A stretch of 42,142 nt of DNA, from IMG/VR virus record IMGVR_UViG_3300025138_000091, positions 1 to 42,142 of that record; one strand, written 5' to 3'. Made by a program: the position numbers and the translations under genes. Within the stretch, counting starts at the first letter, position 1. The number at the start of each line of letters is the position of its first letter. This stretch comes from a virus. Positions 21,636-41,532 of this stretch are shown in pieces. The notes under the pieces are model-generated. The model did not search any database, had not been told where the DNA came from, and worked only from the letters and a program-made list of their open reading frames with translations.

Positions 21636-21665
21636 TTGACAATGACCCTCACTTTTTGATACTAT
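21636..21665 (+). promoter_or_regulatory. Early-type promoter with TCACTTTTTG spacer (copy 1)
   Basis: TTGACA (21636-21641), an 18-nt spacer ending in CTCACTTTTTGA, and TACTAT (21660-21665). The spacer motif CACTTTTTG is shared with four other promoters in this window. The first ATG downstream (21672) opens only an 8-codon frame, so this promoter may drive a short RNA or read through to 21900. Confidence 0.65.
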
Positions 21666-21899: not shown

Positions 21900-22034
21900 A
21901 TGATGACAAACAACCAAAGAAGACTGAGAAGAATTGACATATGGTTTTGCAACAGTTCGTTCTGTGCCTTCCTATGCATGTTCGGTATACCTTTGAGTAT
22001 CATCATGTTAATAAATGGAGTAACAAATGGTTAA
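21900..22034 (+). CDS. Small early membrane protein
   Basis: This encodes 44 residues (43 if the second ATG at 21903 is used). A basic N-terminus (MMTNNQRRLRRIDIW) is followed by one hydrophobic span (about 22-39) with three Cys in its first half. It lies immediately behind an early promoter and overlaps the next gene by 8 nt. It is likely one of the small early membrane proteins that phages use to alter the host; no family is recognised. Confidence 0.5.
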   Translation: MMTNNQRRLRRIDIWFCNSSFCAFLCMFGIPLSIIMLINGVTNG

Positions 22035-22248
22035 TGGTTTGAAAGGTACCCATATCGCTACTGGTATACCAGTGGAGATAAACCTTAATGGGAAAGAGAT
22101 GCAGCTCGCTATGTGTATGGGTGACCATATCAATGAGTGTTGGGAGATGATGAACGCTAGTGTCCTGAGTAGGGGTGAGTGTGGTGTCATAGGAGAGGTA
22201 GAGGTTGATGCAATAGTCATCGGCGGTGTCTCTAAGAAATTCCACTAG
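22027..22248 (+). CDS. Small early protein of unknown function
   Basis: This encodes 73 residues, with GGAG upstream of ATG 22027. It is a compact alpha/beta sequence rich in Gly, Met and Val, with three Cys residues and no membrane span. Its stop lies within the -35 element of the next promoter. Unknown function; host-takeover role inferred only from its early-promoter context. Confidence 0.5.
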   Translation: MVNGLKGTHIATGIPVEINLNGKEMQLAMCMGDHINECWEMMNASVLSRGECGVIGEVEVDAIVIGGVSKKFH

Positions 22249-22274
22249 ACAATGACTGCATCCAGTGTTATACT
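22246..22274 (+). promoter_or_regulatory. Promoter of the structured RNA
   Basis: TAGACA (22246-22251) and TATACT (22269-22274) are separated by 17 nt. The spacer lacks the CACTTTTTG motif, so this is a different class from the neighbouring early promoters. The predicted start is near 22281, at the head of a 240-nt stretch with no gene. Confidence 0.55.
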
Positions 22275-22280
22275 GGTGTA

Positions 22281-22527
22281 TATTAAAGGGTTCATCTGAG
22301 AGTTACCTATAATATATCATGCATATGTGAAAGTCTCAGAGGTTGATGTCCGAACATCCATGGAGGGGAATGAAAACGCCCCTCCACCCCTATGGGTAGG
22401 GGAGAGTGATAGAGCGTCTTAGAACGACTCTCTGTATGTCTAACAAACAGTCCAGCTGAATTCCTCAGCGTTGGTCCACTAGTGTTAAGGCATCGGGATG
22501 ACCTAGACGCCAAAGTAAATTTTTTTT
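22281..22527 (+). ncRNA. Candidate structured non-coding RNA of about 245 nt
   Basis: A promoter precedes and a run of eight T follows (22520-22527); no convincing gene lies between. Successive stems are visible. GATGT/ACATC (22345-22349 with 22354-22358, loop CCGA). TGGAGGGG/CCCCTCCA (22361-22368 with 22379-22386). CCCCTA/TAGGGG (22387-22392 with 22397-22402, loop TGGG). AGAGT/ACTCT (22403-22407 with 22427-22431). GCTGA/TCAGC (22455-22459 with 22465-22469). A bipartite stem joins GCGT and GGTC (22468-22476) to GACC and ACGC (22500-22510). The last two stems share bases and exclude each other. It resembles no RNA family I know. It could be a free regulatory RNA or the leader of the following membrane genes. 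Confidence 0.6.
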
Positions 22528-22541
22528 AGGAGATTATAATT

Positions 22542-22637
22542 ATGCCAACCAATGAACAGTTCGATAGAGTAGAGAGATTACTGATAGGTCTCTATGTGTT
22601 TATACCACTAGCATTTATATTAGGTGAAATACTATGA
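22542..22637 (+). CDS. Tiny membrane protein downstream of the structured RNA
   Basis: This encodes 31 residues, with a strong TAGGAG Shine-Dalgarno right after the T-run that ends the structured RNA. Eleven hydrophilic residues are followed by a hydrophobic span (about 13-30). The stop overlaps the next start as ATGA. The position suggests its expression depends on read-through past, or regulation by, the upstream RNA fold. Confidence 0.5.
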   Translation: MPTNEQFDRVERLLIGLYVFIPLAFILGEIL

Positions 22638-22777
22638 GTGGTCTAGAAATTTTTTTCTTGGGCCTTGCGAGTCTCCTAGGCGTTGTGTGTCTATATCTTA
22701 TGACACATGTGAATGAAGAGCAGAAGACAGGTACTTACATACCTCTGATATGGGAGAAAGACTATTGGAAGAAGTAA
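22634..22777 (+). CDS. Small membrane protein
   Basis: This encodes 47 residues. One membrane span (about 4-24) is followed by a charged tail rich in Lys, Glu and Trp. It overlaps the upstream gene by 4 nt and the downstream gene by 28 nt. It is part of a run of small membrane genes in the early region; function unknown. Confidence 0.5.
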   Translation: MSGLEIFFLGLASLLGVVCLYLMTHVNEEQKTGTYIPLIWEKDYWKK

Positions 22778-23821: not shown

Positions 23822-23897
23822 GCTGGGTTAGCTCAGTTGGTAGAGCAACTGATTTGTAATCAGTAGGTCGTCAGTTCGAACCCGACACTCAGCACCA
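23822..23897 (+). tRNA. tRNA-Thr (anticodon UGU), CCA encoded
   Basis: A 76-nt cloverleaf. The acceptor stem GCTGGGT/ACTCAGC has one G-U pair. The D arm is GCTC/GAGC, and the anticodon stem ACTGA/TCAGT has loop TTTGTAA, anticodon TGT at 23855-23857. The T loop is TTCGAAC, and the encoded 3' end is ACCA. The T stem has one A-C mismatch (23873 with 23883), unusual in an otherwise canonical tRNA. It would read ACA and, with wobble, other Thr codons, which are common in this AT-rich genome. Confidence 0.95.
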
Positions 23898-40635: not shown

Positions 40636-41532
40636 ATGTCAACATCGTTAGATAAGCTCAGACAGGCCATGGAGTCTGCATCACCAGCTCAAGGTGATAA
40701 AAAAACCTACGGAGACGATACTTTCTGGAAACCTGAACTCGATAAGAGTGGTAATGGTTATGCAGTAGTTCGTTTCTTGCCAACACCAGAAGGAGATGAG
40801 ATGCCATGGGTATCTTACTTCGACCATGGTTTCCAAGGTCCAGGTGGTTGGTATATCGAAAAGTCTTTGACTACCATTGGTAAAAAAGACCCTGTAAGTG
40901 AATACAACACATCGTTGTGGAACACAGGAATTGAAGCCAACAAAGAAATGGCTAGAAAACAGAAGCGTAGGCTTCATTATGTTTCTAACATCTTTGTAGT
41001 TTCAGACCCCAAGAATCCTGATAATGAAGGGAAGGTATTTCAGTACCGATATGGTAAGAAGATTTTTGAAATGTTGAAAGAGGCTATCTCTCCAGCATTC
41101 GAAGATGAGTCTGCTATTAATCCTTTTGACTTAAGAGGCGAAGGTGCAAACTTTAAGATTAAGATTAGAAAAGTAGACGGCTACTGGAACTATGACAAAT
41201 CAGAGTTTGATTCACCTGCGAATCTATTTGAAGATGAGGCGAGATTAGAAAATATCGCTATGTCTACAAAGAGTCTATCGGAGATTATATCACCTAGTAA
41301 GTTTAAGTCTTATGAAGAACTTAAAGAGAAACTCGATAGAGTTCTCGGTCTTGCAGGTGCTGTAGCAAATTCTACTGCTGAATCAATTGCAGACGACATG
41401 GAAGAAGTGCCATGGTCTGGAGTTAATACTGAAACAGTAGCAGAAGAACCTGTAATCTCATCAGTAGAATCTACATCCGAAGGCGATGAAGATGATGCGA
41501 TGGATTACTTTAAGAAGTTAGCTGACAGCTAA
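40636..41532 (+). CDS. 32: Single-stranded DNA-binding protein gp32 lacking the zinc cysteines
   Basis: This encodes 298 residues, like T4 gp32 (301), with AGGAG upstream. Domains: a short N-terminal cooperativity segment (LDKLRQAM), an OB-fold core (about 25-240) with GFQGPGGWYIE (65-75), and an acidic C-terminal tail (about 255-298, ending DDAMDYFKKLADS) that contacts other replication proteins. T4 gp32 binds zinc by H64, C77, C87 and C90. Here H64 is kept, but position 77 is Ser and the CPVC region reads DPVSEY; the whole protein has no cysteine. It coats single-stranded DNA in replication, recombination and repair. Confidence 0.95.
   Translation: MSTSLDKLRQAMESASPAQGDKKTYGDDTFWKPELDKSGNGYAVVRFLPTPEGDEMPWVSYFDHGFQGPGGWYIEKSLTTIGKKDPVSEYNTSLWNTGIEANKEMARKQKRRLHYVSNIFVVSDPKNPDNEGKVFQYRYGKKIFEMLKEAISPAFEDESAINPFDLRGEGANFKIKIRKVDGYWNYDKSEFDSPANLFEDEARLENIAMSTKSLSEIISPSKFKSYEELKEKLDRVLGLAGAVANSTAESIADDMEEVPWSGVNTETVAEEPVISSVESTSEGDEDDAMDYFKKLADS

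Follow-up and report, generated by a model that had tools for sequence, protein, structure and literature searches.

Phage genomes encode large non-coding RNAs such as GOLLD and ROOL. The structured leader RNAs of tailed phages are, to our knowledge, few, and most of them come from laboratory phages. In phage HK022, the put elements (putL and putR) are nascent structured RNAs of about 70 nt that modify RNA polymerase and act in cis whichever gene follows; putL lies just downstream of an early phage promoter, and a -10-like sequence at its positions +23 to +28 is thought to cause a sigma-dependent pause (PMC9378689). The translational operator of gene 32 in T4, T2 and RB69 begins with a 5'-terminal H-type pseudoknot and regulates translation (PMC535899). 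Glutamine (glnA) riboswitches have been reported in Melnitz-like phages and pelagimyophages, which are related marine T4-like phages (PMC9004378).

The window analyzed here, the whole 42,142 bases of an IMG/VR virus contig, carries genes for the large subunit of a class I ribonucleotide reductase, a Nol-like carbamoyltransferase and a gp32-type single-strand DNA-binding protein (40636-41532), the last with 52-54% identity to its nearest proteins, those of Melnitz, HTVC008M, Mosig and cyanophages. Because of this gene content and these gp32 relatives, we assign the window to a T4-like marine virus with no close isolate in the cultured-phage collection. On the + strand, a promoter (TAGACA-17-TATACT, 22246-22274), whose -35 box overlaps the stop codon of a 73-aa gene (22027-22248, + strand), precedes a segment (22281-22527) in which the initial annotation of this DNA had proposed a novel multi-stem RNA with its own promoter, a closing run of eight T and no gene. 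We found no plausible + strand gene between 22249 and 22541, the T-run is present at 22520-22527, and the promoter is kept in homologues, as TAGACA-17/18-TATAAT in L004, L009, L011, L038, L045 and L024 (contigs are given by L numbers). The promoter by itself is unremarkable, with 15 promoter-like sites versus 23.8 in shuffles; among homologues, promoter and RNA are conserved together. The proposal of a novel RNA is upheld by homologues, by covariation and by its absence from Rfam. Elsewhere in the window, four long early-promoter-like repeats, TTGACA(atg/gta)NNNNtCACTTTTTNNTA, lie at 21636, 21864, 33411 and 33829 (expected number 0.04), which suggests an early promoter that is specific to the phage and conserved in its spacer.

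Homologues were found by scanning IMG/VR with neighboring proteins and with conserved DNA patterns. The segment was found in L004 (with L003, L006 and L032), L007, L009, L008, L011, L014, L031, L038 and L045; at least seven related contigs conserve it, with no common reading frame. A coding sequence across it was rejected, as the + frames open in any homologue reach at most 52 codons and none is held in common. The 73-aa upstream protein is a conserved neighbor in relatives, and a search with its family alignment showed the family to be widespread (72 IMG/VR loci), with different genes coming after it; no relative was found in the cultured phage records searched. Two of these 72 loci, L085 and L089, carry the same hairpins ahead of a DUF932/TIGR03299 gene, the family name being taken from the gene's phage relatives. 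A pattern built from the shared part added L121, L154, L124/L168, L139/L148/L161/L169 and L138, and L017, L020 and L024 were also recognized as members. The shared module recurs in about 25 uncultured viral contigs and one phage-like MAG contig; these contigs are fragments, several are near-duplicates and the independent lineages number perhaps ten. Each contig has one copy, that of the window lying at 22287-22385 only. When a stricter pattern was run against 84,980 prokaryote genomes, one of the five matches was a true member (L177, a 60.8-kb phage-like contig); the other four were judged to lack the fold, and most of them lie within open frames. By these searches the module appears nearly absent from cellular genomes. 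It was not found in eight cultured phages (Melnitz, Mosig, HTVC008M, P-SSM7, P-SSM4, phiM12, C48C1 and RHph_I1_18), and the DNA of the segment gave no significant match in cultured phages.

The genes that follow the module are unrelated to each other, and include a 59-aa "RYFxKN" gene, DUF932/TIGR03299 genes and others. The first downstream gene of the window (22542-22637, + strand) encodes a membrane-like protein of 31 aa and is not the same gene in relatives: MPTNEQF follows in the window, an acidic protein of 86-89 aa in L004 and L009, and another small protein in L008 and L011. Further downstream, L004, L008, L011, L139 and L024 encode a protein that visual comparison relates to the window's DUF6552 protein of 85 aa, and several members evidently share an early region with the window. 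In L085, L089, L138, L124, L139 and L177, the module stands immediately before a start codon, 100-135 nt separating S1, its first stem, from the ATG; the same spacing is found in L020, L121, L154, L038 and L045, where the following gene is that of the 59-aa protein. The window also holds a tRNA-Thr gene (TGT, 23822-23897), which appears to be an insertion: in L002/L005 and L007 the gene is missing, and the alignments pass directly from 23816 to 23897/23898.

Conservation centers on a module of 99 nt (22287-22385), which occupies the extreme 5' end of the segment and is built in order from an H-type pseudoknot with stems S1 and S2, a GG, a hairpin H2, a short linker and a hairpin H3, all on the + strand. 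The pseudoknot (22288-22340) is the best conserved element; it escaped the initial annotation because a reading in nested stems cannot reveal a pseudoknot. In S1 (22288-22308), GGGT at 22288-22291 pairs with ACCT at 22305-22308, and in S2 (22295-22340), TCTGAGA at 22295-22301 pairs with TCTCAGA at 22334-22340. H2 (22345-22358) is closed by GAT (22345-22347) and ATC (22356-22358) around the loop GTCCGAAC, and H3 (22362-22385) by GGAGGGG and CCCCTCC around the loop AATGAAAACG. Among members, S1 has 3-6 bp, S2 6-7 bp, H2 3 bp and H3 5-7 bp, and the loop bases of H2 (consensus NNCYGAAC) and H3 (usually RAUGARANNG) are near-invariant. The bridging loop of the pseudoknot ends in AAAG or GAAG; in the window class it measures about 20-25 nt, as opposed to 4-8 nt in the DUF932, L124, L139 and L177 members. 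In L139, the pseudoknot has an S1 of 5 bp, an L1 of 1 nt, an S2 of 7 bp and an L3 of 7 nt. In the bridging loop of the long-loop class (22310-22333 in the window), the stretch ATATATCATGCATATGTGAAAG is almost invariant and includes -10-like elements, a kind of sequence also present in HK022 putL.

The four helices are supported by abundant compensatory changes and are, on this comparative evidence, real. S1 occurs with 10 different arm pairs and S2 with 13, all of them paired (one bulge in L008 removed for S2), and S1 changes on both sides at four of five positions. In a covariance-model alignment of 20 sequences, H2 covaries in all three pairs with 100% of cells paired and H3 in five of seven with 98.4% paired; together they have 98.9% of cells paired, both-side changes in 8/10 pairs and a covariation score of 0.665, compared with 0.183 in shuffles and at most 0.192 in slid controls. 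The 12 long-loop members were also aligned with MAFFT and scored on the full structure including the pseudoknot: of 22 pairs, 17 changed on both sides, and the score was 0.600 versus 0.206. None of 500 shuffles reached the observed value, and all slid controls were far lower. When S1, S2, H2 and H3 were assigned by hand, all pairs were standard among dereplicated members, and reshuffling of the arms did as well as observed in 0, 0, 2 and 0 of 20,000 trials, respectively, a test that overstates the case, the arms having been picked by eye and one bulged base of L008 omitted. When the 60 nt upstream were searched for the best partner of the 7 nt before the GG, most members yielded one that paired over all 7 nt and kept a steady position; single-member p values were modest (0.008-0.12) in those with the full partner. 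The check on homologues that the initial annotation had called for thus revealed compensatory changes in all four helices of the module and no reading frame common to them. The perfect 8-bp GC-rich hairpin that it had described is real, with an energy z score of -4.2 and strong covariation, but corresponds to H3 and has 7 bp (22362-22385). The segment as a whole folds weakly better than shuffles (MFE z -1.66; 13 of 200 as good), which is insufficient alone, so the case for a structured RNA rests on evidence beyond energy.

The position of the module relative to the predicted promoter points to the 5' end of a transcript. Of 17 members, 11 carry a -10 hexamer (matching in at least 5 of 6 positions) at a distance of 4-15 nt ahead of S1; random positions within these loci do so at a rate of 11.9% (binomial p ~4e-7, the true value being larger as members are related and not independent). 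In the window class, the module begins 13-14 nt after the -10 box. The box is absent or weak in L124, L139, L177, L008 and L154, and is about 29 nt off in L085/L089. Since the box precedes S1 in these 11 members, the module usually begins only a few bases from the predicted transcription start, and the pseudoknot would form the very start of the RNA. In relatives, the 5' end (GTAGTATAATGGTTA) resembles a tRNA D-arm; we discount this, since the sequence is the -10 box.

Downstream of the module, conservation declines. In the window and its closest relatives, the module is joined to a less conserved, faster-changing 3' domain, followed by the T-run. The intervening variable region of the window (22387-22402, + strand) forms a small hairpin, CCCCTA-TGGG-TAGGGG, with an energy no better than that of shuffles. 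In L038, L045, L020, L121 and L154, the 59-aa gene takes the place of the variable region, between the module and a recognizable 3' domain. Its product, conserved in these five contigs, belongs to an RYFxKN family (xxRYFxKN...VW...); cultured phages gave no relative of it, and no Pfam family scored above its cut-off. The 3' domain (22446-22503, + strand) comprises AACAGTCC (22446-22453), GGTC (22473-22476) facing GACC (22500-22503), and TTAAGG (22485-22490). In the window class its sequence is conserved, in the order AACAGTCC, GGTCCAC, TTAAGG, GGGATG and then AAATTTTTTTT, and remnants of these motifs occur in L017 and, after the 59-aa gene, in L038, L045, L020, L154 and L121.

Covariation support for a fold of the 3' domain was not obtained in the relatives' alignment. 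The hairpin at 22473-22503 has an ordinary energy (z -0.6) and is partly kept in relatives. A candidate closing stem (22414-22510, + strand), seen by eye, pairs GCGTCTTAG (22414-22422) with CTAGACGC (22503-22510); its counterparts, also by eye, are GCGTCTT/AAGACGC in L008, 8 of 9 pairs in L009 and a weaker form in L014, and the form GCGTCTTAG/CTAAGAC is found in L008 and L009. This stem is the best candidate for the fold of the domain. A long-range pairing of 5' GGGTTCATCT with 3' GGGATGACC, suggested by a consensus fold, is only a possibility, given its weak covariation and its disruption in L009 and the 59-aa-gene class. The mutually exclusive stems that had been read as a switch (22455-22469 and 22468-22510) lose their support, because one of them, the hairpin at 22455-22469, is not kept in L004, L009, L014 and L031.

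The segment ends in an A-tract/T-tract, AAATTTTTTTT, which together with the Shine-Dalgarno sequence AGGAG that follows it spans 22517-22532 (+ strand), a motif kept in relatives. No intrinsic terminator was called at the T-run, and no GC hairpin directly precedes the eight T, from which the end of GACGCC (22511) is 8 nt away. As the run has no hairpin in front of it and abuts the Shine-Dalgarno sequence, its reading as a canonical terminator is not supported. The tract AAAATTTTTTT(T)GG occurs twice in the window (22517-22527 and 22647-22656) and also in L008, L017, L020, L121 and L154, recurring beside gene starts and even within the start regions of small genes.

In the mechanism that we propose, the promoter at 22246 would initiate, near 22281, an early transcript whose first ~105 nt would fold into the 5'-terminal H-type pseudoknot and the two hairpins with near-invariant loops. 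Because the same fold recurs at the transcript starts of unrelated genes, we infer that the module is cis-acting and works on the transcript that it begins, with the conserved loops CYGAAC, RAUGARA and GAAG recognizing a trans factor. The leader of the window and of its close relatives would bear in addition the 3' domain, ending in a U-tract just before the next Shine-Dalgarno sequence. We consider it probable that this is a new cis-acting early-leader RNA, acting through a bound factor or through protection of its end. As to how it would act, modification of RNA polymerase or antitermination, by analogy with HK022 put or lambda nut, is a tentative suggestion; control of translation by a bound protein, as an operator or otherwise, is somewhat unlikely, and protection of the 5' end of the mRNA rather more so. 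Direct translational control is less obvious in the window class, where 254 nt separate the module from the start of the next gene. The downstream genes have no common theme, and duplex energies between Shine-Dalgarno sequences and the S1-S2 pseudoknot region were not better than those of shuffled controls, so we favor an effect that does not depend on the gene over a metabolite riboswitch. The occurrence of the module before unrelated genes predicts a general device for the handling of early transcripts, and, the module being short and its stems breakable and restorable, the hypothesis is directly testable.

The initial annotation had proposed, as the first of two possibilities, an RNA acting in trans, which would here be a small RNA of about 245 nt, dual-function where the 59-aa gene lies inside it, ended at the T-run and directed at host or phage RNAs. 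Its own promoter and T-run are conserved, the RNA stays while the downstream gene differs between relatives, and the 3' domain is conserved too. Nevertheless, the terminator hairpin is absent, the T-run abuts a Shine-Dalgarno sequence, as expected of a leader, and the core module occurs without the 3' domain right before the start codons of other genes, which makes such an RNA unlikely. Control in cis, which the annotation had mentioned as its alternative, is the better fit: in other viruses the core module alone is a 5' leader directly upstream of various genes. Conserved DNA, with a promoter, protein-binding sites and chance stems in place of a functional RNA, would agree with the near-ordinary folding energy of the segment and with the conservation that promoter-proximal DNA can show. 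For the 5' module this reading is refuted by the compensatory changes in 17 of 22 pairs and by scores that no shuffle in 500 attained; it may still hold for the T-run and for parts of the 3' domain, and as an account of the whole it is scarcely credible.

Two further readings retain the cis-acting leader and differ in what it would sense or bind. The compact pseudoknotted build, the near-invariant loop bases and the position 100-135 nt upstream of start codons would suit an aptamer that controls translation of the gene behind it, and glutamine riboswitches have precedent in related marine T4-like phages (PMC9004378). A metabolite riboswitch is nonetheless doubtful, given the lack of a common metabolic theme among downstream genes, of a match to any Rfam riboswitch and of a signal for Shine-Dalgarno sequestration in the S1-S2 region tested, and the near absence of the module from cellular genomes. 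A translational operator through which the phage single-strand DNA-binding protein would control its own synthesis, like the T4 gene 32 pseudoknot, could draw on the 5'-terminal H-type pseudoknot and its classical geometry, as in L139, on the gp32 relative encoded by the virus and on the UUAA stretches that follow the module in L085, L089 and L138 but not in the window class. It is very improbable, since the module of the window is not upstream of gene 32 (40636-41532), the two additional hairpins with invariant loops have no counterpart in the operator, and the window class is structured rather than A/U-rich after the module. Returning to the early-leader RNA, a bolder form of it, which we put forward speculatively, is a phage leader of a new class that would bind the host transcription or translation machinery through the pseudoknot and two recognition hairpins and serve any early gene behind it, and that in one lineage would have merged with a small gene and the 3' domain into a composite coding and structured RNA.

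Comparison with catalogued RNAs agrees with the initial annotation, which had recognized no RNA family here. The module matches none of the 4227 families of Rfam 15 at gathering or permissive thresholds, and fourteen relatives searched against Rfam gave no module match, with only tRNA matched. No tmRNA was found by ARAGORN or Rfam, the tRNA/tmRNA search giving only the tRNA-Thr at 23822. HDV-like, pistol, twister and other ribozymes were rejected, with no Rfam match and no topology known to match, and the titles and abstracts of the open-access papers found by literature searches gave no description of such an RNA. GOLLD and ROOL are far larger than the module, which had no such match in Rfam. 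The glnA riboswitches are likewise structured leader RNAs of related marine T4-like phages, but the module has no Rfam glnA match and differs in sequence and fold. Like put of HK022, an RNA that suppresses termination and binds the zinc-binding domain of the beta' subunit of RNA polymerase, it lies just downstream of a predicted early promoter; put, however, consists of two stem-loops with no pseudoknot and is known from lambdoid phages, whereas the module has a pseudoknot and two hairpins. With the gene 32 operator it shares a 5'-terminal H-type pseudoknot in the leader of a T4-like phage; in contrast, that operator pseudoknot is about 28 nt long, lies upstream of gene 32, is followed by unstructured UUAAA repeats and lacks counterparts of H2 and H3. 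By the tests made, the module is a member of neither. What is new, as far as sequence comparison can tell, is a covariation-backed RNA of uncultured marine T4-like viruses which, missing from Rfam and from eight cultured phages, stands before unrelated genes.
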